Positions 1,212-38,476 of a stretch of 50,439 nt of DNA are shown here, one piece after another. Made by a program: the position numbers and the translations under genes. This stretch comes from Sphingomonadales bacterium (lineage in GTDB: Bacteria > Pseudomonadota > Alphaproteobacteria > Sphingomonadales > Sphingomonadaceae), in NCBI GenBank assembly GCA_025351405.1, contig JANXVZ010000012.1:1-50439 (forward strand). Reading direction: 5' to 3'. The notes under the pieces were generated by a model. It was not told the origin of the DNA. It was given only the letters and a program-made list of their open reading frames with translations, and searched no databases. Position 1 is the first letter of the stretch. Each line of letters opens with the position of its first letter.

Positions 1212-2387
1212 TCAGCCGCGCTCGACGCACATGGCGATGCCCATGCCGCCGCCGATGCACAGGGTTGCCAGCCCGCGCCGCACATCGCGGCGCACCATTT
1301 CGTGCAGCAAGGTCGTCAGCACCCGCGCACCGGAGGCGCCGATCGGGTGGCCGATGGCGATGGCGCCGCCGTTGACGTTGACCCTCGCCGGATCGAGCCC
1401 GAGTTCCTGCCCAACCGCCAGCGCCTGCGCCGCGAACGCCTCATTGGCTTCGACGAGGTCGAGGTCGGCGACCGTCCAGCCGGCCTTTTCCAGCGCCTTG
1501 CGCGATGCCGGCACCGGGCCGATGCCCATGACCGCCGGGTCGACGCCGACGCTGGCCCAACTGGCGATGCGGGCGATGACGGGAGCGCCGCGCCGCGCTG
1601 CCTCGGCCTCGCTCATCACCACCAGCGCCGCGGCGCCGTCGTTGAGCCCGCTGGCGTTGGCGGCGGTGACGCTGCCGTCCTTCTTGAAGGCGCCGCGCAG
1701 GCCCGAAATGCTTTCAAGCGTCACGCCGTCGCGAATATATTCGTCGCTGTCGATGATGGTATCGCCCTTGCGGCCCTTGACGGTGACCGGCGCGATCTGG
1801 CCCTTGAAGCGGCCTTCGCTGCGGGCGGCGCTGGCCTTGTTCTGGCTGGCAACCGCGAAATCATCCTGCGCCGCGCGGCTGATCTGATATTGTTCGGCAA
1901 CATTTTCGGCGGTGATGCCCATGTGATAGCCGTTGAAGGCATCCCACAGGCCATCCTTGATCATGGTGTCGACAAGCTCGATGGCGCCCATCTTGGTGCC
2001 GCTGCGCAGTGCCTGGGCATGCGTTGAAAGGCTCATCGATTCCTGGCCACCGGCGATGATGATTTTTGCGTCGCCGGACTGGATGGCCTGGGAGGCGAGG
2101 GCGACGGCGCGCAGGCCCGAGCCGCAGACCTGGTTGACCCCCCATGCCGGGGTGGCCTGGGCGATGCCGGCCGCCATCGCCGCCTGCCGCGCCGGGTTCT
2201 GGCCCTGCCCGGCGGTCAGCACCTGGCCGAGGATGACTTCGTCGATCTCGTCCGCCGAAACGCCGGCATCGGCCATGGCGGCAAGGATCGCAGCCTTGCC
2301 GAGTTCGTGCGCCGGCACCGCCCCGAAGGCGCCCATGAAGCTGCCGACAGGTGTGCGGCGTGCGGCGGTGATGACGGTTCCGGTCAT
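1212..2387 (-). CDS. phaA: Acetyl-CoA C-acetyltransferase (thiolase)
   Basis: The 391-residue product is a full-length biosynthetic-type thiolase that condenses two acetyl-CoA to acetoacetyl-CoA in the cytoplasm, the first step of polyhydroxybutyrate synthesis. All active-site landmarks are visible: nucleophilic Cys88 in NQVCGSG, the [10 protein letters not shown] motif with His347, and Cys377 in LCIGGGMG. I chose the ATG at 2387 because [15 protein letters not shown] is the normal thiolase N terminus and GGGGAG sits a few bases upstream; an upstream in-frame ATG would add 24 untypical residues. It follows phaC on the same strand with about 124 bp between. The context with phaC and phaR favours a PHB role, although beta-oxidation or acetoacetate metabolism would use the same enzyme. 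Confidence 0.92.
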
Positions 2388-2511
2388 GGACAAGCTCCCC
2401 AGCGATGTGTGTGTGATTCGGTTCGCCGCACGGTAAGGACTGGCCGTGGCAAAGGCCATAGAGGTGTCGATGCCGCGCCGGTGGCCGGCTGTGTCCGGGC
2501 GCCGCGGAAGG

Positions 2512-3669
2512 TCAGGATTTGGCCCCCCGGGGCTGACCTTCCAGCAGCCATCGGCCCAGCGGTGCCCATAGCAGGGCCGGGGCGTGACGCCCGACGATCA
2601 TGCCGACATGGCCCGCATCGAGCATCAGGCCGGTGCCGATGCCCCCCGCCGAAACCGCAGCGGCGGCGGGCACGATCCGGTCGCGCCGGGCCACGATGTC
2701 GAGCACCGGCATGGCAAGCGCGGCAGGGTCGACACCGCTGCCGCCGACCTGCCAGCGCCCGGTGCCCGGAAGGTCCTCGCCGTGGAAACCGACCGCAAGA
2801 TCGTGCATCGCGGCCAGCGACAACGGATGCCCGGCGTTCGACCAGTCCTCCAGCCGCACGAAGGCGTCCGCCTCGGGGCCATCGGCCATGGTGGCAAAAC
2901 GGGCGTATTTCGCCACCAGTCCCTCCGGATCGAGACCCCAGAATGCCGGCTGCAACAGGTCCATCGGCACCGCGCCCAAGGGAATGGCGAGCGGCTCGGC
3001 ACCGCGCCACCAATCCGCCAGCGCGGCGCGCGCCGTGTCGTCATAGCCGGCAAAATGCCACGGCGCGGCGAGCAAGGCGAGGCGCGTTACCCGGCCCGGC
3101 GCGGCGCGTGCAGCGGCCGCCAGCGCCAGCGTGCCGCCAAGGCAATATCCGAGCATCGCAACCGGTTCGCCGATGGCATCGAGCAGCGGCAGCAGCCGGG
3201 TTTCGACCAGCGCGGCAAGGCTGGCACCGGTTTCCGGCGGGCCCCAATCGACGAGCATCGGGCGGTGGCCATGGGCAGCCAGATGCCCGAGCAGCGAATT
3301 GCCGGGCGCCAGGTCGAGGACGTGCGGCGGATTGATCAGCGACGGCACCACCAGCAGCGGGCGACCCGTTCCCAGCCCCAGATCACGCAGTGCGATCGCC
3401 CCCGATCGTGCCACCACCGGATACGAAGGCCGCGGCGGCGCAATCGGCGCGGACTGGTATCGCCGCAGCCCGGCCAGCACCGCGGCCATGCGCTCCTTGT
3501 CGGCACCGCAAGCCCGGTTTACCGCGGCAAGGAACACCGGCAACGGATGCGGTCCGCGGCCCCTGGCGACGGCCGATGCTGCCTCGTCATGCGGCGCAGC
3601 AGACCCGCGTTGCGGTGCAGCATATATGTGTGATACTGCCGCAGCTTCGTCTGTATCGGGAACAATCAT
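2512..3669 (-). CDS. phaC: PhaC-like polyhydroxyalkanoate synthase, short alpha/beta-hydrolase type
   Basis: The 385-residue product carries the PHA-synthase version of the lipase box, GYCLGG, with Cys176 as nucleophile, plus the expected aspartate (near 330, in ARRDRIVP) and histidine (near 354, in DAGHVG). PHA synthases polymerise (R)-3-hydroxyacyl-CoA into storage granules. The size matches the compact class III-like or sphingomonad form rather than the roughly 600-residue class I enzyme, and no phaE partner is visible. The ATG at 3669 has AGAGG upstream, and no other ATG, GTG or TTG lies before the conserved PHPLPVFL segment. That start overlaps the divergent phaR start (shared CATG). It is followed by thiolase. 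It could instead be a granule-associated hydrolase, but the Cys box argues for synthase. Confidence 0.8.
3609..3622. promoter_or_regulatory. Possible PhaR operator before phaR (TGC/GCA-rich)
   Basis: GTTGCGGTGCAGCA lies 46 bp before the phaR ATG, inside the 5' part of phaC. PhaR repressors are known to bind TGC/GCA-rich partial palindromes at their own and phasin promoters. A TATATG hexamer at 3623-3628 could be the phaR -10 element, which would put this site in the promoter spacer; no good -35 is visible. The assignment rests on resemblance only. Confidence 0.3.
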
Positions 3670-4285
3670 GGCCGACGCCTCTGCTCATAGTGACGGTTCC
3701 AAGGCCGCCTTGCCGGTCGTCATCAAGAAATATGCCAACCGCCGCCTCTACAATACCGAAACCAGCAGTTACATCACACTGGAGCATCTGGCGACGATGA
3801 CGCGCGAAGGCCGTGATTTCCAGGTTTTCGATGCCCGCAGCGGCGATGACATCACCCGGTCCGTGCTCACCCAGATCGTCATGGAGGAGGAATCGACCGG
3901 CCAGACGATGTTGCCGGTACCGTTCCTGCGCCAGATCATTTCGATGTACGGCGATTCGATGCAGTCGATGGTGCCGCATTACCTCGAAGCCTCGATGGCG
4001 GCATTTTCGGAGAACCAGGCCAAGTTTCGCGATGCGGCGCTCAAGCCGTTCGAACAGCTTGCCAAACAGAACCTGGCGCTGTTCCAGGCCGCCAGCGAAA
4101 TGTTGAGCGGCCGGCCAGGCGCTGCGATGTCGGGTATGGCGGGCAAGACCCGCACCGCCACCACGCCGGCGCCAGCCGCACCCGCCACGCCGACCGCAGC
4201 GGCGAACAGCGACGATGAACTGCGCGCGCTGAAGTCCCAAATGGCGGCGCTGCAAGCCCGGCTCGACGGTCTCGCAAAGGGTTAG
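3668..4285 (+). CDS. phaR: Polyhydroxyalkanoate synthesis repressor PhaR
   Basis: The 205-residue product begins, after a short leader, with the PhaR DNA-binding domain signature VVIKKYANRRLYNT and SYITLEHLATM, then a PHB-accumulation regulatory region (residues about 60-110, with QTMLPVPFLRQIISMYGDSMQ), and ends in an Ala/Pro/Thr-rich linker and a coiled-coil-like tail. PhaR senses PHB granules and represses phasin genes and its own gene. The ATG at 3668 shares bases with the divergent phaC ATG; GGGAA lies 4-5 bp upstream as a weak ribosome site. An alternative TTG start just before the domain (residue 15) is possible. Its position opposite phaC-phaA fits control of the storage cluster. Confidence 0.93.
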   Translation: MADASAHSDGSKAALPVVIKKYANRRLYNTETSSYITLEHLATMTREGRDFQVFDARSGDDITRSVLTQIVMEEESTGQTMLPVPFLRQIISMYGDSMQSMVPHYLEASMAAFSENQAKFRDAALKPFEQLAKQNLALFQAASEMLSGRPGAAMSGMAGKTRTATTPAPAAPATPTAAANSDDELRALKSQMAALQARLDGLAKG

Positions 4286-30178: not shown

Positions 30179-33154
30179 ATGACATTCTTGCTGCTCATCG
30201 TCGCTGTGGCGGCGATTGTCGACCTGCACCAGCGGTTGCGCCGGCTTGGCGAAGCGGCCCGGGACGACCGTTTGCGGCTCGATTGGGCCGAGCAGCGGCT
30301 GCAATTGCTCGAACGCGTGGACAGGCGCGTTGGTATCACGCCGGAAAGCGCCACCTCCCCGGCGGCCGATGCGGAGCCCGTTACCGCGCCGGCGCCGCGA
30401 CCGACCCCATGGGACACGCCGCCGCCGTTTCCCGATACCATCGTGTCGTCGCCCGGACGCCAGGCATCGCCCGAGCTGCCAGAGCTGCCGGAGCCTTTGG
30501 AGTCGTTGGCGCCGGACGTCGGGCCCGAGCCGGACCTCGTACCTGTGCAGCCCTCGCGCGCCTGGTCCTTCGAACAATTGTTCGGCGAGCAATTGCCGGT
30601 GTGGGGGGGCGGCATTGCGCTGGCGCTCGCCGGCTTCTTCCTGGTCAAATATTCGATCGACATCGGCCTGATCACCCCGGCCGTTCGCATCCTTCTCGGT
30701 GTCGTTTTCGGCATCGTCCTGATCGCTGCGGCCGAAGTGGCGCGGCGGTGGTCCAAGACAGCGGCCGACCCGCGTATCGGCCAGGCCCTGGCGGGAAGCG
30801 GTGTCGCGGTGCTTTATGCCGTCAGCTTCGTGGCGACGCGGCTGTATGAACTGGTGCCGCCGTCGGTGGGCTTTGCCGGCATGGCGGCGACCACCGTCAT
30901 TGCACTGGTGCTGGCGCTCCGCCATGGCCCGGCCACGGCGCTTCTGGGGCTTTTGGGTGGCTTTGCGACGCCGGCTTTGGTGGCGTCGGGCGAAGGCAGT
31001 GTCCCGGTGCTGCTCGGCTATCTGTTGCTGACGGTTGCGGGGTTGCTCGGGCTGGCGGGCCGGCAGGGCTGGCGCTGGCTAGCGGCGCTGGCATTGCTGG
31101 GGGGTTTTGGCTGGGGCGCGCTGCTGCTGTTCGGGCACATGGCGACGGCTGACCTGCGGCTGACCGGGTTGTTCCTCGCCGGGCTGGCGCTGGCAGCGGT
31201 GTGGTCCGATAGTCGCAATGGCGATGCGGCCGGGGGTTTCCCGCCGCGCTGGCTGGTGTCCGGCGCGTCGATGGCGTTGGCTTTCGTGCAACTGGCCTTT
31301 GTCGTCGGCAAGGGCGGCTTCGGCCCGCTCGAATGGGGACTTTACGGACTGTTGGGCGCAGCCACGCTTGTTATCGGCATCCGCGATTCGCGCTACCGTC
31401 GCATGCCGCTCATCGGCTTTGCCATCGGGATGGTGACCCTGTTGGTCTGGCCGGCGCCGCTGACCAATTTTGCCGCCGTTGCCGTGTTGGCGACGCTGCT
31501 GTTCGGCATTCCATCCTATGCCATGGCGGTGCGCAGCGACGCGCGGGCGTGGATCGTGCTGGCGCTGGCGGCGACTCTCGCACCGGCCGCGATCGCCTAT
31601 GTGCGACTGCCGGACATGCTGGCGCCGGCGCTGTGGGCTGGCGTCGCGCTGGTGGCGATGGCGGCGCCGGCGTGGCTGGCATGGCGCGCCAACAGCAAGG
31701 GCGGGACGCTGGCGCTGTTCGGTGGCACGGCGGTGACGGCTCTGCTGGCGGGCTTTGCGCTGGCGATGACGGTGCCGGATATCGGCCTGCCGCTGTGCTA
31801 TGCCGGGTTGGCGCTGTTCATCGCGGTGTTGGCACAACCGGCGCGGGATCCACGGTTCGGCTGGCTGGCATTCGGTCCCGTGGCGGCTGCATTGACCGCG
31901 CTGCTCGTTGCCAATCCAGATCATTCCGAACAGGCGGTACGGATGCTCGGCGTCGACGGCATCGCACCCTTCGACGGCCAGCTGCGCTACGTGCTGCCGG
32001 GGCTGGCGCTGCTCGGCGCATCCGCTGCCGATCCAGCCGCTGATCGCCGTCGCATCTTCGCAGGGCTCGGCACGCTGCTGCTCGCGATCGGCGTCGTCCA
32101 GATGCTTCCTGCCGATTGGCGGCCGCTCGGGCTGGCGGCGCTGGCATTGGTCCTGGGCGAAACGTCGCTGCGCTGGCCGCGCCTGCCGCTGGCCGAAGGC
32201 AGTGCCGGCGTCGCATTCTACACGATGCTATGGATGCTGCCGCCGGTGGCGATGACCGGCCTGGCCATCCTTGGTCATGTCCCGGCGTCGTTGCCTATCC
32301 TCGTCGGCGACCTGCCGACGGTTACCCATGCGTTGCGCTGGCTGGTGCTGCCCGCAGTGCTGCTGCTGGCGCTGGGATGGCGAATTTCGCCGCCGCACTG
32401 GCGCATGCGCGGTGCCGCCGTCGCGGCGTTGCCGTTCGCGGTCGCCGGTTACGTGCTGCTGAGGCAACCTTTCGCCATTGCGACAGCGGCGGACTTCGTG
32501 GCGCGCGGCTTTGCCGAACGCACGCTCATCACCTTGTTGTTGCTCGGCAGCGGCGCGGCGCTCTACGGGTTGGCGCCCCGCGGCGCTGTGTGGCGCTGGT
32601 CGGCGCGGGCCGCCACCGCTGGCGGATTGCTGCGTTTCGCAACGCTCGATCTCATCTTCTACAATCCGCTGGTGGCGCAGAATGTCGGCGACGTGCCGGG
32701 GCTGAACTGGCTGCTGCCGGCGTTCCTTGCGCCGATGCTGGCGGTCGGCTGGTTGTTGCGCAACGAGCCCGACCTCGACCGGCGATTGGGTATCTGCCTT
32801 GAAATCCTGCGCGTGGTTGCCGTCACCGCTTTTGCCTTGTGGAGCGTCCGCCAGATCTTCCACGGCGGGATATTGGCGACCGGTGCCGTCGGAACGTCGG
32901 AATATTATGCCTATTCGCTGGCGGCGATCGTTACTGCGCTGGTTTTGCTGGCATGGGGCGCGCGTCGCGACAACGCCGTCATGCGGGTGGCCTCGCTGGT
33001 GCTGCTGCTCGGCGCGGTCGGCAAGGTGTTCCTGTCGGATGCAGCGGCACTGGAAGGCTTGCTCAGGATCGCGTCGTTCCTGGGTTTGGGCATCAGCCTG
33101 ATCGGGGTCAGCTGGTTTTATACCCGCCATGTCTTTGCCAGGGCCAGCCGTTAG
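30179..33154 (+). CDS. Multi-spanning DUF2339 membrane protein
   Basis: The 991-residue product starts with one hydrophobic helix (MTFLLLIVAVAAIVDLHQRL), a short coiled stretch and a Pro-rich linker, and then WSFEQLFGEQLPVWGGGIALALAGFFLVKYSID, the DUF2339 entry motif, followed by more than 20 hydrophobic segments. The family is found in many Gram-negatives; its function is unknown. GGGGG lies just before the ATG. The stop overlaps the convergent parE stop by four bases, so the two transcripts share 3' ends. Confidence 0.88.
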   Translation: MTFLLLIVAVAAIVDLHQRLRRLGEAARDDRLRLDWAEQRLQLLERVDRRVGITPESATSPAADAEPVTAPAPRPTPWDTPPPFPDTIVSSPGRQASPELPELPEPLESLAPDVGPEPDLVPVQPSRAWSFEQLFGEQLPVWGGGIALALAGFFLVKYSIDIGLITPAVRILLGVVFGIVLIAAAEVARRWSKTAADPRIGQALAGSGVAVLYAVSFVATRLYELVPPSVGFAGMAATTVIALVLALRHGPATALLGLLGGFATPALVASGEGSVPVLLGYLLLTVAGLLGLAGRQGWRWLAALALLGGFGWGALLLFGHMATADLRLTGLFLAGLALAAVWSDSRNGDAAGGFPPRWLVSGASMALAFVQLAFVVGKGGFGPLEWGLYGLLGAATLVIGIRDSRYRRMPLIGFAIGMVTLLVWPAPLTNFAAVAVLATLLFGIPSYAMAVRSDARAWIVLALAATLAPAAIAYVRLPDMLAPALWAGVALVAMAAPAWLAWRANSKGGTLALFGGTAVTALLAGFALAMTVPDIGLPLCYAGLALFIAVLAQPARDPRFGWLAFGPVAAALTALLVANPDHSEQAVRMLGVDGIAPFDGQLRYVLPGLALLGASAADPAADRRRIFAGLGTLLLAIGVVQMLPADWRPLGLAALALVLGETSLRWPRLPLAEGSAGVAFYTMLWMLPPVAMTGLAILGHVPASLPILVGDLPTVTHALRWLVLPAVLLLALGWRISPPHWRMRGAAVAALPFAVAGYVLLRQPFAIATAADFVARGFAERTLITLLLLGSGAALYGLAPRGAVWRWSARAATAGGLLRFATLDLIFYNPLVAQNVGDVPGLNWLLPAFLAPMLAVGWLLRNEPDLDRRLGICLEILRVVAVTAFALWSVRQIFHGGILATGAVGTSEYYAYSLAAIVTALVLLAWGARRDNAVMRVASLVLLLGAVGKVFLSDAAALEGLLRIASFLGLGISLIGVSWFYTRHVFARASR

Positions 33155-35127
33155 GCGTCGAGTGCCTCGGCATCGACAGCATCGGCGTGCGCCTGGATGA
33201 AGGCAAAACGATGTTCGGGGTTGCGCCCCATCAGCCGCTCGACGAGGTCGGCGACATCGGCGCGGCCGTCGACGCCCTCGGGCAAGGTGACCCGCAACAG
33301 CGTGCGCTTCTTCGGGTCCATCGTTGTTTCGCGAAGCTGTTGTGGCGCCATTTCGCCAAGGCCCTTAAAGCGGCCGGTCTCGATCTTGGTCTTGCCGGCG
33401 AAAAGCGTGCGCAGCAATTCTTCGCGATGGGCGTCGTCGCGGGCATAGGCGACGGTGCCCCCGGCAGCGAGCCGGTACAGGGGCGGTTGCGCGACATACA
33501 GCCGACCGTCGCGGACCAGGCCGGGCATTTCACGGAAAAAGAAGGTCATCAGCAGCGTCGCGATATGGGCACCATCGACATCGGCATCGGTCATGATGAC
33601 GATGCGTTCGTATCGCAGGTTTTCGGGGGAATAATTGCCGCGGGTGCCGCACCCGAGTGCCTGGATGATGTCGGCGACCTCGTTGTTGGCGCCGATCTTG
33701 GCGGCGTTGGCGGAGGCGACGTTGAGGATCTTGCCGCGGATCGGCAGGATCGCCTGGGTGTTGCGGTCGCGGGCGTGTTTTGCCGAGCCACCCGCCGAAT
33801 CACCTTCGACGATGAACAGCTCCGTGCCGGCCGAATCGTTGCGCGCGCAATCGGTCAGCTTGCCCGGCAACCGCAGGTTGCGCTTGGAGGTTGCGGTCTT
33901 GCGCTTGACCAGCAGCTCGGCGCGGCGGCGCAGCCGGTCCTCCATGCGCTCGGTCACAAACGCCAGCAACGCCTTGCCGCGCTCCCCCGATGCGGTCAGC
34001 CAATGGTCGAAATGGTCCTTGATGGCGTTTTCGACCAGCCGTGTCGCTTCGGGCGAGGTCAGGCGATCCTTGGTCTGGCTCTGGAATTGCGGGTCGCGCA
34101 GGAACAGCGACAGCATCAGTTCGGCGCCGGAAAAGACATCTTCGCCAGACAGTTCGGCAGCCTTCTTGTTGCCGGTCAGCGCCGCATAGCCCCGCAGGCC
34201 GCGGGTCAGGGCCGTTCGCAGCCCCGCCTCATGCGTGCCACCATCCGGCGTCGGGATGGTATTGCAGTAAAAGCTGGCAGAACCTTCGCCATAGGCCGGC
34301 CAGGCGCAGGCCCATTCGACCGCACCCTTGCCCTCGGCAAGGTCGGCCCGGCCAAAAAACAGGTCCGGCGTTACCAGCTCGCGGTCGGCGAGGCGTTCGC
34401 GAAGGTGGTCGGATAGTCCGCCGGGGAACTGGAAGGTCGCGGATTCAGGCGTGTCGCCGTCAAGCAGCGCCGCCGCGCCTTTCCAGCGGATTTCGACGCC
34501 GCCGAACAGGTAGGCCTTGGATCGCGCCAGCCGATACAGCCGCGAAGCCCTGAATTTGGCTTCCGGCCCGAAAATATCGCTATCCGGCAAGAAGCGGATG
34601 GTGGTGCCGCGCCGGTTCGGCACCGCGCCCATCTTCTCAAGGCCTGTCGTTGGCGCGCCGCGCGAAAACCCCTGGCGGAACAACTCGCGGTTGCGCGCCA
34701 CCTCGACCGTCATCACCGATGACAGCGCGTTGACGACGGAAATGCCAACGCCGTGCAGTCCGCCCGACGTCGCATAGGCCTTGCCGCTGAATTTTCCGCC
34801 GGAATGCAGCATGGTCATGATGACCTCGAGCGCGGACTTGTCCGGAAAACGCGGGTGCGGGTCGATGGGGATACCACGGCCATTGTCCGAAATGCTCAGC
34901 GAGCCATCGGCTTCAAGGGTCACTTCGATGCGGGTGGCATGGCCCGCCACCGCTTCGTCCATGCTGTTGTCGAGCACTTCAGCGGCCAGATGGTGCAGGG
35001 CGCGCTCATCGGTGCCGCCGATGTACATGCCCGGCCGCCGCCGGACAGGCTCCAGTCCTTCGAGCACCTCGATATGGCTGGCATCATAGTCGCTGGAGGC
35101 CGCCGTCGCGGCGAACAAATCGCTCAT
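33151..35127 (-). CDS. parE: DNA topoisomerase IV subunit B
   Basis: The 658-residue product is a complete ParE: N-terminal GHKL ATPase (HIEVLEGLEPVRRRPGMYIGG; AEVLDNSMDEAV; ISDNGRGIPID), transducer domain, and TOPRIM domain with TELFIVEGDSAGGSAK and the metal-binding VIMTDADVDGAHI. With ParC it decatenates daughter chromosomes. ATG 35127 (MSDLFAA) was chosen over the upstream ATG because the N terminus fits and GGTGGC stands before it. ParC is not in the window. It converges with the DUF2339 gene with overlapping stops. Confidence 0.95.
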   Translation of the reverse strand: MSDLFAATAASSDYDASHIEVLEGLEPVRRRPGMYIGGTDERALHHLAAEVLDNSMDEAVAGHATRIEVTLEADGSLSISDNGRGIPIDPHPRFPDKSALEVIMTMLHSGGKFSGKAYATSGGLHGVGISVVNALSSVMTVEVARNRELFRQGFSRGAPTTGLEKMGAVPNRRGTTIRFLPDSDIFGPEAKFRASRLYRLARSKAYLFGGVEIRWKGAAALLDGDTPESATFQFPGGLSDHLRERLADRELVTPDLFFGRADLAEGKGAVEWACAWPAYGEGSASFYCNTIPTPDGGTHEAGLRTALTRGLRGYAALTGNKKAAELSGEDVFSGAELMLSLFLRDPQFQSQTKDRLTSPEATRLVENAIKDHFDHWLTASGERGKALLAFVTERMEDRLRRRAELLVKRKTATSKRNLRLPGKLTDCARNDSAGTELFIVEGDSAGGSAKHARDRNTQAILPIRGKILNVASANAAKIGANNEVADIIQALGCGTRGNYSPENLRYERIVIMTDADVDGAHIATLLMTFFFREMPGLVRDGRLYVAQPPLYRLAAGGTVAYARDDAHREELLRTLFAGKTKIETGRFKGLGEMAPQQLRETTMDPKKRTLLRVTLPEGVDGRADVADLVERLMGRNPEHRFAFIQAHADAVDAEALDA

Positions 35128-35257
35128 GCAGCCACCATAGTCCGGCATTGTGCGGGAGGACAGAGGGAGAACGCTGGCGAAACAGCTACTGACGGGACGA
35201 TTTCATGACTCTTTGGAAAACTTTTGACGCGGACCCATTTTTAGCGTTGCAAATGCC

Positions 35258-35278
35258 TTTGTTGCAGTGCACAACAAT
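35258..35278 (+). promoter_or_regulatory. TGCA-palindrome element, copy A (before the candidate small RNA)
   Basis: TTTGTTGCAGTGCACAACAAT is a partial palindrome around TGCA-G-TGCA, followed six bases later by GGCCAAT. The same arrangement recurs before the TorF gene. A TTGCAG/AATATG pair 17 bp apart inside it could be a promoter. It resembles TGC/GCA-rich PhaR sites, which is inference. Confidence 0.45.
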
Positions 35279-35289
35279 CAGGCCAATAT

Positions 35290-35348
35290 GGCGATCCTCC
35301 CCAAGGATAAACTTCAGGGGCCGGTGGTTTTTCCGCCGGCCCTTTTTT
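35290..35348 (+). ncRNA. Candidate short small RNA with C-rich loop
   Basis: A stretch of about 50-60 nt between promoter-like element A and a strong terminator has no open frame of note. It contains a small hairpin ATCCT-CCCCA-AGGAT (35294-35308) that exposes CCTCCCC, complementary to Shine-Dalgarno sequences, and then the terminator stem. Alphaproteobacterial small RNAs often carry C-rich anti-Shine-Dalgarno loops (for instance the Rhodobacter CCUCCUCCC RNAs). The start is estimated from the -10-like AATATG. It could alternatively be a terminated leader or a decayed gene. The rest of the 440-bp gap between parE and torF holds the two promoter elements and nothing else I can name. Confidence 0.5.
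35318..35348 (+). terminator. Rho-independent terminator
   Basis: GGGCCGGTGG-TTTTT-CCGCCGGCCC forms a 10-bp stem with one G-T pair, followed by six T residues on the plus strand. No annotated gene ends here, since parE is read away from it, so it must end a non-coding or unrecognised transcript. Confidence 0.9.
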
Positions 35349-35452
35349 CATGGCCGGCACCGGATGCTGGACGTCTCTCCAGCGCAGGCGCCGCGCAGTG
35401 TGGCCGAATGTCCACAATCATCCGGGGAAACGTTGCGGTGCCGCACAATCTC

Positions 35453-35467
35453 TTGTGCAATGCACAA
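35453..35467 (+). promoter_or_regulatory. TGCA-palindrome element, copy B (before torF)
   Basis: TTGTGCA-A-TGCACAA is a perfect 15-base palindrome, preceded by CACAA-TCTC so that a third half-site is present, and followed five bases later by GGCCAAT. It lies 102 bp before the TorF ATG and repeats copy A at 35258. Confidence 0.55.
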
Positions 35468-35568
35468 AGGTCGGCCAATCTTGATGGCACATCCGGCATC
35501 AGACCGGCGCGAGCAGGACAGTCATCACAACAGCCCGGTCCCAAGGCCGGGTGCAAGGGAGGTTATCC

Positions 35569-36300
35569 ATGCGTGCCAAATTCCGTGCAGCAGCCATTGC
35601 TGCCGCACTTACCATCACCGCCGCCGCGCCCGTCGCTGCTCGCGCCGAAGATGCGCCTAAGGACTTTTTCAGCATCACCGGCGGTGCCAGCTTCGTTTCC
35701 GACTATCGTTTCCGCGGCGTCTCGCTGTCGAACACCGAAATCGCCGTGCAGCCGTACATCACCCTCAACACCGCTCCCGGCTTCTACGTCGGGCTCTGGG
35801 GATCCTCGATTGCCACTTACGGTGGCGCCAACACCGAAGTCGATGTGTTCGGCGGCTGGACCGGCACCACGGGCCCGGTTACCTCGACGATCGGCATCTA
35901 CAGCTATCTGTATCCAGGCGGCAGCGGCGTCGACTATTACGAAATCTACGGCAGCATCGCCAAGACCCTGGGCCCAGTCGGGCTGACCCTTGGCATCAAC
36001 TATGGCCCGAACCAGAAGAATCTCGTCAGCGACGATTTCTATATCTATGGCCTTGGCACCGTCGGCATTCCCAATACGCCGATCACGCTGAAGGGTTCGC
36101 TCGGTTATGAAGACGGGTCGGGCCCGCCGGCAGCCGGTTCTTCGGGGCGCAGCAAGGTCGACTACATGGTCGGCGCCGACATCAAATGGAAGGTGCTGAC
36201 GCTCGGCCTTCAGTATATCGGTAACGACGTCGACAAGAACTCGTTCAACCGCTCGAATACCAAGGGCCGGTTCGTCGTCAGCTTGACGGCAGGGTTCTAG
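35569..36300 (+). CDS. TorF-family putative porin
   Basis: The 243-residue product has a signal peptide (MRAKFRAAAIAAALTITAAAPVAARA) and the TorF pattern FSITGGASFVSDYRFRGVSLSNTEIAVQPYITL, followed by amphipathic beta strands and an outer-membrane-type final Phe (SLTAGF). TorF-like porins are often encoded near glnK/amtB or other nitrogen genes in alphaproteobacteria; here glnA-glnB converge on it. AGGGAGG is an excellent ribosome site. A hairpin (CCCGG...CCGGG) lies in the leader at about 35534-35551. Which solute passes is unknown. Confidence 0.88.
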   Translation: MRAKFRAAAIAAALTITAAAPVAARAEDAPKDFFSITGGASFVSDYRFRGVSLSNTEIAVQPYITLNTAPGFYVGLWGSSIATYGGANTEVDVFGGWTGTTGPVTSTIGIYSYLYPGGSGVDYYEIYGSIAKTLGPVGLTLGINYGPNQKNLVSDDFYIYGLGTVGIPNTPITLKGSLGYEDGSGPPAAGSSGRSKVDYMVGADIKWKVLTLGLQYIGNDVDKNSFNRSNTKGRFVVSLTAGF

Positions 36301-36315
36301 ACGCATCACGGCAGT

Positions 36316-36358
36316 GGCCCGGTCGGCAATTCGTTCGTCGCGAATTGCCGACCGGGCC
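36316..36358. terminator. 18-bp perfect hairpin after torF
   Basis: GGCCCGGTCGGCAATTCG and its exact complement, separated by TTCGTCG, form a very stable stem 16 bp after the TorF stop. It lacks a T tract and may act as an mRNA 3'-end stabiliser or bidirectional terminator. Confidence 0.6.
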
Positions 36359-36425
36359 CTGACGCGCACCAGCCCCGGCCAGCGAGGCTGCAGGGCATTT
36401 ACCGGGCGAACTCGACTGACGCGAA

Positions 36426-36450
36426 CGCGGGCTTTGCCTGCGTTTTTTTT
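36426..36450 (+). terminator. Rho-independent terminator, plus strand
   Basis: CGCGGGC-TTT-GCCTGCG (one wobble pair) is followed by eight T residues. It is the T-tract terminator for the torF transcript, behind the 18-bp hairpin. Confidence 0.85.
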
Positions 36451-36589
36451 ATGTGGTCATCTCTCGGCTTGCCGCGCTCGCGACAAACGAAACCCCGCCT
36501 GGGATGGACGGGGTGGGTATGGTGGTGATCGCGTGATGCAAGATACGCGGGCCGTGCGCGCGCCGGTCGGTCGGGCCCGGGGCGAATCC

Positions 36590-36637
36590 GGGCCGATTGC
36601 GGGGTGTTTGGTGTAGAACGACCCCCGCAATCGGCCC
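36590..36637 (-). terminator. 15-bp hairpin just after glnA
   Basis: GGGCCGATTGCGGGG and its exact complement flank an 18-nt loop and begin 7 bases after the glnA stop on the minus strand. There is no T tract. It probably ends or stabilises the glnBA mRNA. Between this hairpin and the torF terminator, CCCCG...CGGGG at about 36493-36513 is a weaker stem. Confidence 0.6.
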
Positions 36638-36643
36638 AGCCGC

Positions 36644-38056
36644 TTACGAGCTGTAATACATGTCGAATTCGACCGGCGCCGGGGTCATTTCCCAACGCTG
36701 AACGTCGTGCATCTTCAGTTCGATGTACGAATCGATCTGGTCGTCGGTGAACACGCCCCCCTTGGTGAAGACAGCGCGCGACTTGTCCAAAGCACCAAGT
36801 GCTTCGCGCAGCGACGCGCACACTGTCGGAACCTTCTTCAGCTCCTTTGGCGGCAGGTCATAAAGGTTCTTGTCCATCGGCGCGCCGGGGTGGATGCGGT
36901 TCTCGATGCCATCGAGGCCGGCCATCAAAAGCGCGGTGTAGCAGAGGTAGGGGTTGGCCATCGCATCCGGGAAACGCACTTCGACACGCTTGGCCTTGCC
37001 GCCGCTGCCATAGGGAATACGGCATGATGCCGATCGGTTGCGGCTCGAATAGGCGAGCAGCACGGGGGCTTCGAAACCCGGGACCAGGCGCTTGTAGCTG
37101 TTGGTCGATGGGTTGGTGAAGGCGTTGCAGGCCTTGGCGTGCTTGATGATACCGCCGATGAAGAACAGCGCGAGTTCCGACAGGCCGGCATAGCCGTCGC
37201 CGGCGAACAGCGGCGTCTTGCCGTTCCAGATCGACAGATGGGTGTGCATCCCTGAGCCATTGTCGTCCTTGATCGGCTTGGGCATGAAGGTCGCGGTCTT
37301 GCCATAGGCGTGGGCGACCTGGTGGACGACATATTTGTAGACTTGCATGCGGTCGGCCGTCGTCGTCAGCGTCCCATAGGTCAGGCCGAGTTCGTGCTGG
37401 GCGGCGGCGACTTCATGGTGGTGCTTGTCGCAAGGGAGCCCCATCTCGAGCATGGTCGAAACCATTTCGCCGCGAAGATCGACGGCGGAATCGACGGGCG
37501 CAACCGGGAAGTAACCGCCCTTGACGCGGGGGCGGTGGCCCATGTTGCCGACATCATAGACCTTGCCCGAATTGCCCGGCAATTCGATGTCGTCAAGGTG
37601 ATAGAAGCCTTCGCCATAGCCAAGGCCGAATCGCACGTCGTCGAAGACGAAGAATTCGGCTTCCGGCCCGATGTAGATGGTGTCGCCGATGCCGCTCGCC
37701 TTCAAATAGGCCTCGCCGCGCTTGGCGGTCGAGCGCGGATCGCGGCTGTAAAGCTGGCCGGTCGAAGGCTCGACGATGTCGCAGATGAGGATCAGCATCG
37801 GCGTCGCCGAAAACGGGTCGATATAGGTGGCGTCGAGATCGGGCATGAGGATCATGTCGCTCTCGTTGATCGCTTTCCACCCGTCGATCGACGAGCCGTC
37901 GAACATGAAGCCATCTGTCAGCATGTCTTCATCGACAACGCTCGCAACCATCGTCAGATGCTGCCACTTGCCCTTGGGATCGGTGAAACGCAGATCGACC
38001 CATTCGATCTCCTTTTCCTTGATCATCCCGAGGACGCCAGAAGCTTTCTTCGCCAT
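36644..38056 (-). CDS. glnA: Glutamine synthetase, type I
   Basis: The 470-residue product is a complete type I glutamine synthetase: beta-grasp N terminus ([21 protein letters not shown]), [12 protein letters not shown], the ATP region [29 protein letters not shown], and the adenylylation loop with Tyr near 399 ([10 protein letters not shown]). It condenses ammonia and glutamate with ATP and is switched off by GlnE-mediated adenylylation at that tyrosine. It is 36 bp downstream of glnB; the pair is the standard alphaproteobacterial glnBA operon, driven by the sigma-54 site at 38461-38476. A strong hairpin follows. Confidence 0.97.
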
Positions 38057-38092: not shown

Positions 38093-38458
<366 letters not shown>

Positions 38459-38460
38459 CT

Positions 38461-38476
38461 AGCAATTGCCGTGCCA
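38461..38476 (-). promoter_or_regulatory. Sigma-54 promoter of glnBA
   Basis: On the minus strand TGGCACG-GCAA-TTGCT matches the -24/-12 consensus (TGGCACG-N4-TTGCW) at every specified base. It ends 30 bp before the glnB GTG. RpoN-dependent, NtrC-activated expression under nitrogen limitation is expected; I could not pick out clear NtrC boxes in the upstream 117 bp. Confidence 0.9.

Follow-up and report, generated by a model that had tools for sequence, protein, structure and literature searches.

The window, i.e. the whole stretch of 50,439 bases analysed here, harbors between parE and torF two similar palindromes, each followed by the string GGCCAAT. In the initial annotation they had been regarded as a duplicated element through which one regulator drives a short terminated RNA and a TorF porin beside glnBA. 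The locus raises the question whether the segment behind the first palindrome is a gene of its own, which regulator may act on this gene and on torF, and what the RNA might do in the cell. Judged by its sequence, the region 35282-35348 indeed has the appearance of a separate RNA gene that ends in a terminator and is served by a putative promoter of its own (Table 1).

Table 1. Features of the sRNA-torF locus and of phaR (positions in the window)
Feature	Position	Strand	Remarks
phaR, predicted regulator	3692..4285	+	TIGR01848, 154.5 bits, over cut-off
parE	33151..35148	-	TIGR01055, 747.6 bits; divergent neighbour of the sRNA gene
Degenerate second dyad upstream of the sRNA gene	35237..35257	.	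4.7 bits
Putative sRNA -35 region TTGCAA	35247..35252	+	direct reading
PhaR-like operator 1, CTTTGTTGCAGTGCACAACAA	35257..35277	.	22.4 bits; between putative -35 and -10
Putative sRNA -10 region CACAAC	35270..35275	+	17 nt after the -35 region; direct reading
sRNA gene, ~67 nt, three predicted stem-loops	35282..35348	+	putative 5' end
Stem-loop 1, GCC-AAUAU-GGC	35282..35292	+	single-sequence fold; holds most of the first GGCCAAT copy
19-nt core GGCGATCCTCCCCAAGGAT with stem-loop 2 AUCCU-CCCCA-AGGAU, anti-Shine-Dalgarno stretch	35290..35308	+	
Intrinsic terminator (stem-loop 3 and T run)	35316..35348	+	
PhaR-like operator 2, CTCTTGTGCAATGCACAAAGG	35450..35470	.	19.7 bits; over putative torF -35
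Putative torF -35 region TTGTGC	35453-35458	+	
Putative torF -10 region CAATCT	35476..35481	+	direct reading, 17-nt spacing; overlaps the second GGCCAAT copy
torF, TorF-family putative porin (Gcw_chp)	35569..36300	+	PF09694, 142.9 bits; TIGR02001, 104.9 bits
glnA	36644..38056	-	TIGR00653, 614.6 bits
glnB	38093..38443	-	
Sigma-54-like exact match TGGCACGGCAATTGC upstream of glnB	38462-38476	-	pattern search

Palindromes and putative promoters of the sRNA gene and torF

Both palindromes (TTGCAGTGCACAA at 35262-35274 and TTGTGCAATGCACAA at 35453-35467), both GGCCAAT strings (35281-35287 and 35473-35479) and the terminator described behind the first copy were recovered, the latter with 12 pairs, nine of them G-C, in front of its T run. 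The idea of a duplicated element held insofar as two dyads of one kind exist, but not as a duplicated block, since a generic repeat finder disclosed no direct repeat of at least 12 bases in 34900-35700. GGCCAAT, which had been taken as part of the regulatory element, preceded the RNA core in only three of 42 RNA loci and followed the torF dyad in one of 13 torF loci possessing a site, namely that of the window itself. Moreover, its first copy runs into the 5' arm of stem-loop 1 and thus lies inside the putative transcript. From these sequence comparisons, the presence of GGCCAAT in both copies looks like a coincidence.

The palindromes were scored with a PhaR matrix of 21 positions, compiled from 20 Sinorhizobium meliloti sites in efficiently bound promoters (Table 3 of PMC12542648). 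Both contain the YGCRNYGCR dyad, a feature of the PhaR regulon, and with 22.4 and 19.7 bits, respectively, they were the two best sites of the whole window, ahead of a third with 11.4 bits. When the intergenic region was simulated 500 times with a first-order Markov model, no site attained the score of the second palindrome. Weaker sites were located between the palindromes (9.2 bits, 35428-35448) and 67 bases upstream of the phaR start used (10.6 bits, 3605-3625). In the genome, TTGCANTGCACAA had three exact matches: besides the copy in the sRNA promoter, two copies precede a Phasin_2 gene (contig 39), which fits PhaR as the regulator. The phaR gene was the sole TIGR01848 match of the genome and is adjoined by a thiolase gene and a weakly matching PhaC-like gene (89 bits versus a cut-off of 365; window 1215-4285).

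The sRNA promoter could be examined independently, because the loci had been gathered by the RNA core and not by the promoter. Among 42 distinct loci (L080 and L095 excluded), a strict YGCRNYGCR dyad started 26-29 bases before the core in 37, and a TTG[ACT]NN hexamer started 40-48 bases before it in 36. A further dyad 20 bases upstream, degenerate in the window, reached at least 11 bits in 11 of these loci. The five loci devoid of the dyad (L089, L091, L094, L102 and L106) are mostly titled Sphingosinicella, and parE was not seen in the stretches examined. They appear to represent a second class of copies with the same 19-nt core and another promoter (CGCAGGTGCAA). We infer that transcription starts near 35281-35283, at the base of stem-loop 1; the start previously suggested (35285-35296) lies a few bases further downstream. 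A scan of 34000-37500 for E. coli-type promoters yielded a single site on the other strand inside torF and none at either putative promoter; its silence at the sRNA promoter counts against the PhaR-based explanation given below.

For torF, a second promoter, as claimed before, is likewise suggested by the sequence. Matches to torF were found in 79 of 98 relatives, and 30 loci were examined, 22 at the family level and eight from other families. With start codons extrapolated from the alignment, 13 of the 22 family loci possessed a PhaR-like site of at least 12 bits within -230 to +20 of torF, compared to none of 260 tiles elsewhere in the torF loci, a lenient control as the tiles are mostly coding, and to 13 of 440 Markov simulations. 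With the threshold raised to 15 bits, the values were 9 of 22, 0 of 260 and 2 of 440, respectively. None of the eight loci of other families had such a site before torF, which counts against the explanation. In five of the 13 loci with a site, its left half reads CTTGTGC, which would put the torF operator on the -35 region. Another hairpin element (ATTCCTCCCCAAGGAAT plus terminator) was noticed upstream of an other-strand torF copy (L148, G035 contig 16, minus strand).

The PhaR (AniA) regulon of S. meliloti shares with this locus the YGCRNYGCR dyads. Phasin genes and an alpha-r8 sRNA are among its members, and two sites around the -35 region are a feature of phaP1/phaP2. Unlike there, a TorF-family porin is a predicted member here. 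A search of the literature by titles, abstracts and term counts returned no report on a TorF-family porin in a PhaR regulon, and at the level of listings none on a PhaR-operator sRNA beside torF in sphingomonads.

It had also been supposed that NtrC might act at the sRNA promoter. Within 35149-35568, no NtrC-like or sigma-54-like match with at most two mismatches was detected by two simple patterns, which indirect or degenerate control could escape. Hence, of the proposal that one regulator controls the sRNA and the porin, the single regulator is sustained by a PhaR-like site in each promoter sequence, but NtrC is not. The sigma-54-like match TGGCACGGCAATTGC before glnB would be expected for NtrC-type control of glnBA, not of the sRNA. 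The glnA/glnB neighbourhood of the sRNA, pointed out earlier, was encountered in relatives as well. In a genome of another family of the order (G070), a variant RNA was accompanied by two PhaR-like sites of 18.9 and 16.5 bits (L188, hairpin near 1771, minus strand) and faces a gene reading as glnA. Judged from this genome, the link of the RNA to glnA may be old.

Conservation, structure and relatives of the RNA

Blast searches with 121 bases gave matches at E <=0.1 in 51 of the 98 relatives. Thirty loci of the better-matching among these 51 genomes were examined, and the core GGCGATCCTCCCCAAGGAT was unchanged in 26 of them (i.e., in at least 26 of 98 relatives) and absent from four. Within the genus, 23 of 24 genomes contained the core; the exception, G016, is 78% complete. 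The parE gene adjoins the RNA in all 26 core-bearing loci. A torF gene was seen near the RNA in three of them (G000, the genome of the window, G026 and G030). In the remaining 22 genus loci, stretches of up to 1.5 kb on each side contained none; instead, 12 of these loci have glnA or glnB on the opposite strand. Thus, the conservation in close relatives on which the initial annotation had laid weight applies to the RNA and its dyad, but not to the position of torF beside the RNA.

The 19-nt core was also searched for in 84,980 species genomes. This gave 42 exact-match stretches, 40 of which were RNA-like and belonged to Sphingomonadales wherever they were named. The genera named were Sandarakinorhabdus, Polymorphobacter, Glacieibacterium, Pacificimonas, Hankyongella and Sphingosinicella, the others being named only at higher rank. 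A T run followed the core in 38 of the 40; in L075 and L108, counted as RNA-like, the examined stretch ends inside the terminator. Two matches without a T run (L080, titled Rhodobacteraceae, and L095, Oceaniglobus) were taken as chance and excluded from the counts. Many records of this set are the same genomes as the relatives of the Blast set, and the invariance of the core is selected for in the 19-mer set and less so in the Blast set. A torF match within ~1.6 kb after the core was present in nine of the 42 stretches; hence, the order RNA-torF is not peculiar to this genome. In L097 (Hankyongella), parE matched in three pieces, pointing to a sequencing error or a broken gene. Our covariance model R1 recovered the variant at E <1e-12 in 27 of the 98 relatives. 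At E <=1e-9 it was found in only 12 of 396 Sphingomonadales genomes and in six of 84 genera, a rarity that counts against the explanation proposed here.

The single-sequence fold predicts three stem-loops with -33.4 kcal/mol (z = -4.37; none of 200 shuffles was as stable). In the consensus fold of a 41-sequence alignment, two-sided changes occurred in seven of 15 pairs, all of them in the terminator stem, while the five pairs of stem-loop 2 never varied and stem-loop 1 was not contained. A compensated change in stem-loop 2 was disclosed by sister elements, in which AUCC..GGAU is replaced by UUCC..GGAA (A-U to U-A). These data and the parE synteny support the existence of the RNA. If stem-loop 2 forms as predicted, part of the anti-Shine-Dalgarno stretch would be masked, which counts against the proposed mode of action.

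At the gathering thresholds of Rfam, only a tRNA was detected in the window. Against a cut-off of 41, model RF00519 (suhB, mmgR) scored 30.4 bits at the locus (E 1.8e-4 when 451 bases were searched), in an alignment that requires a 32-base insert in the 5' stem. Ten of 13 related loci matched at E <=1 with 24.6-37.5 bits; L052, L063 and L073 did not. Both the insert and the three failures count against the explanation. When whole genomes were searched, 60 of the 98 relatives had an RF00519 match above the cut-off, but the genus, with its 24 genomes, had none. The best match of G000 was on contig 17 (32.6 bits) and lacks the CCUCC core; the locus of the window was not among the matches listed for G000. 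For the remaining 23 genomes of the genus, the listed matches included the variant locus in 16. Since this search ranked another place of G000 above the locus, our confidence in the explanation decreased by a trifle. Weak RF00519 matches must be regarded as unspecific, because ten of 14 control genomes were matched, one of them over the cut-off. With the exception of a tRNA in L091, the other Rfam matches (GlmZ, L20 leader, miRNA models and others) stayed below the cut-off and were taken as chance. Conversely, R1 also matched places where RF00519 lies above its cut-off, at ~1e-8 to 1e-5 and weaker.

Canonical copies of the family consist of GCC-UUUCA-GGC, AUCCUCUCC, UAAAACUU and a terminator. 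In the variant, AGGAU after the core folds the CU-rich stretch into a hairpin. Alpha-r8 RNAs carry a single-stranded 10-mer, UUUCCUCCCU, according to PMC12559287, whereas the variant has GAUCCUCCCC, predicted to be partly paired in stem-loop 2. Common to both are a weak hairpin immediately preceding the CU-rich core, here GCC-AAUAU-GGC when the RNA is folded as a single sequence, and the intrinsic terminator directly downstream. The usual neighbour of alpha-r8 genes, the N-formylglutamate amidohydrolase (FGase) gene, is absent, the neighbours being parE and torF/glnA. The gathering cut-off of 41 bits was reached neither by the RNA of the window (30.4) nor by the best of the 13 related loci (37.5). 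Because, in addition, the 10-mer differs and is predicted to be partly paired, and no FGase gene is adjacent, we did not file the RNA as alpha-r8. By its sequence it resembles MmgR, SuhB and SisA but is a divergent relative.

With MmgR of S. meliloti the variant shares a short intergenic RNA with a 5' hairpin, a CU-rich anti-Shine-Dalgarno stretch, ACUU and an intrinsic terminator, besides a link to PHB and a PhaR site inside the promoter, both of them predicted here. S. meliloti PhaR binds the mmgR promoter, as stated in PMC12542648, and mmgR is reported in PMC8401924 to be activated by NtrC as well. Unlike MmgR, the variant possesses the additional AGGAU, which builds a second hairpin around the pairing stretch, and shows no sign of NtrC control. 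The likeness to RF00519 and the published binding of PhaR at mmgR support our explanation. SuhB of Sphingopyxis granuli TFA, compared by its description, is likewise a sphingomonad RNA, with 61 nt. PMC6563040 reports a positive effect of PHB granules on SuhB transcription and a lowered translation of the target by SuhB together with Hfq, acting on the 5' UTR of thnR; by a count of terms, the word PhaR does not occur in that paper. Unlike the variant RNA, SuhB has in thnR a published target. SisA-D of Caulobacter crescentus (alphaR8) have the anti-Shine-Dalgarno core in common with the variant. Their upstream sequences share no motif, and SisA represses TonB-dependent receptors by acting upstream of start codons, a class of targets that recurs among the candidates of the variant RNA. 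In contrast to the variant, the 10-mer of SisA-D is single-stranded, sisA adjoins the FGase gene, and the CrfA sponge regulates SisA-D (all as given in PMC12559287). The variant RNA most likely works like an alpha-r8 RNA.

In canonical suhB loci of other family members, a PhaR-like site of at least 12 bits within 100 bases upstream was present in nine of 29, two of these sites lying more than 80 bases from the match; PhaR control of canonical copies is thus not general. Many canonical sphingomonad suhB promoters (L214-L233, L121-L137) have TTTTCGCACTTGCACAA or a similar sequence in common, which is dyad-like with a two-base spacing and is located around the -35 region, ~30-45 bases ahead of the RNA.

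Candidate targets and a hairpin after amtB

The sequence GGGGAGGA was found 2-10 bases before an ATG at 20 places in G000, including the starts of two genes for TonB-dependent receptors (L202 and L206). A kinase-like gene (L197) has 13 bases complementary to the core. The longer complement TTGGGGAGGA had no match before an ATG in G000, which counts against the explanation, and gave matches in 21 of 24 genus genomes. Thirty of these loci were examined; several turned out to be just the opposite strand of the RNA or of the hairpin after amtB. Among the others were three TonB-dependent receptors of genus-mates (L240, L241 and L254), genes of the acyl-CoA ligase type (three times, one of them Pfam-checked) and DHDPS-family genes. 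As read from these sequences, TonB-dependent receptors as targets of the sRNA are suggestive only. Against a background with a mean of -15.0 (sd 3.3, n 63), the pairing of the RNA with the starts of torF (-16.6) and the phasin gene (-13.8) was ordinary, which counts against the explanation; direct pairing with either start was dismissed. The strongest values of the 12 starts tried were obtained with thiolase (-20.4) and glnB (-20.3), ~1.6 sd beyond the background mean.

R1 also found a hairpin, GUUCCUCCCCAAGGAAAC, followed by a terminator directly after amtB. Out of 15 secondary-match loci examined, 13 exhibited the hairpin by pattern, ten of these after an AmtB-matching gene. The copy of G000 has the same UCCCCAA loop (L179:2767-2822, i.e. 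contig 36, 118266-118321, minus strand; amtB Pfam-checked). Its sequence and position suggest that this hairpin is possibly a sister RNA derived from the 3' UTR.

Proposed regulation and its alternatives

We regard it as probable that the locus is a switch in which titration of PhaR controls the sRNA and torF and the RNA blocks ribosome-binding sites. PhaR, encoded 31 kb away, would occupy the dyad between the -35 and -10 regions of the sRNA gene and the second dyad, which covers the -35 region of torF, and would thereby repress both genes. Upon carbon excess PHB granules would form and draw PhaR onto them, so that both promoters would open, as published for phasin genes. The transcribed sRNA would then act in trans, probably with Hfq, the CUCCCC of stem-loop 2 pairing with ribosome-binding sites of the GGGGAGG type and lowering translation. 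TonB-dependent receptors are perhaps the best candidate targets. For this explanation count the first two matrix ranks, the dyad in 37 of 42 loci, the presence of phaR, the sites at torF and the occurrence of GGGGAGGA or TTGGGGAGGA before receptor starts.

Another regulator might bind the dyads of a genuine RNA, either NtrC or a factor recognizing a similar palindrome. The reported NtrC activation of mmgR (PMC8401924) and the adjoining glnA and glnB would fit, and the PhaR sites are assigned by prediction. Yet the simple patterns revealed no NtrC-like or sigma-54-like match, the dyads are close to published PhaR sites and the same dyads precede the phasin gene, which makes this alternative quite unlikely in our view. 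If PhaR control is right, the RNA may still act other than by Shine-Dalgarno pairing and use the loop of stem-loop 2 to sequester another sRNA or a protein as a sponge. In favour of this, its pairing stretch is predicted to lie inside a hairpin, other than the single-stranded 10-mer of alpha-r8 (PMC12559287), and the RNA does not pair unusually strongly with the starts of torF or the phasin gene. However, none of the 26 relatives shows a change in the core, which is complementary to strong Shine-Dalgarno sequences, and the related SuhB and SisA act on the thnR 5' UTR and upstream of start codons, respectively. A sponge is therefore unlikely, if worth bearing in mind.

That the RNA is only an abortive leader or attenuator of torF, starting at the first dyad and ending at the terminator or reading through, might be assumed from its position on the same strand 220 bases upstream of torF and from the torF match that follows in nine of 42 stretches. 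The RNA exists, however, without a torF match in the stretches examined from the other 22 genus loci, a dozen of which show glnA or glnB on the opposite strand, and torF has its own operator and putative promoter. We consider a leader disfavoured and very unlikely. The notion of a short coding gene, whose frame opens with ATGGCGATCCTCCCC, is extremely unlikely. Although the window has the ATG, as do 31 of the 42 distinct loci, and the frame remains uninterrupted there, 11 loci lack this start codon while retaining the core (e.g., L046, L063, L073 and L078). In the window the frame crosses the terminator, and no Shine-Dalgarno sequence was seen by eye. The short frame is disfavoured, since only those 31 loci have the start codon.

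Returning to the PhaR-titration switch, a wider scheme is conceivable, in which sphingomonads would use PHB-titrated PhaR as their one carbon-storage sensor to switch the variant alpha-r8 RNA and TorF porins together and so reshape the outer membrane, while the amtB transcript releases a sister regulator with the same seed, so that carbon-storage and nitrogen signals would join on the same targets; we consider it possible but doubtful. New is a sRNA with a predicted PhaR operator that is related to MmgR and SuhB and situated next to a porin gene with a PhaR operator, also predicted. By analogy, this suggests how, at the level of sequence, PHB granules and suhB transcription may come to be linked, as reported for a sphingomonad. 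In addition, a TorF-family porin joins the predicted PhaR regulon, and the RNA variant holds its pairing stretch in a hairpin. If the explanation is right, the composition of the outer membrane would be directly governed by stored carbon.
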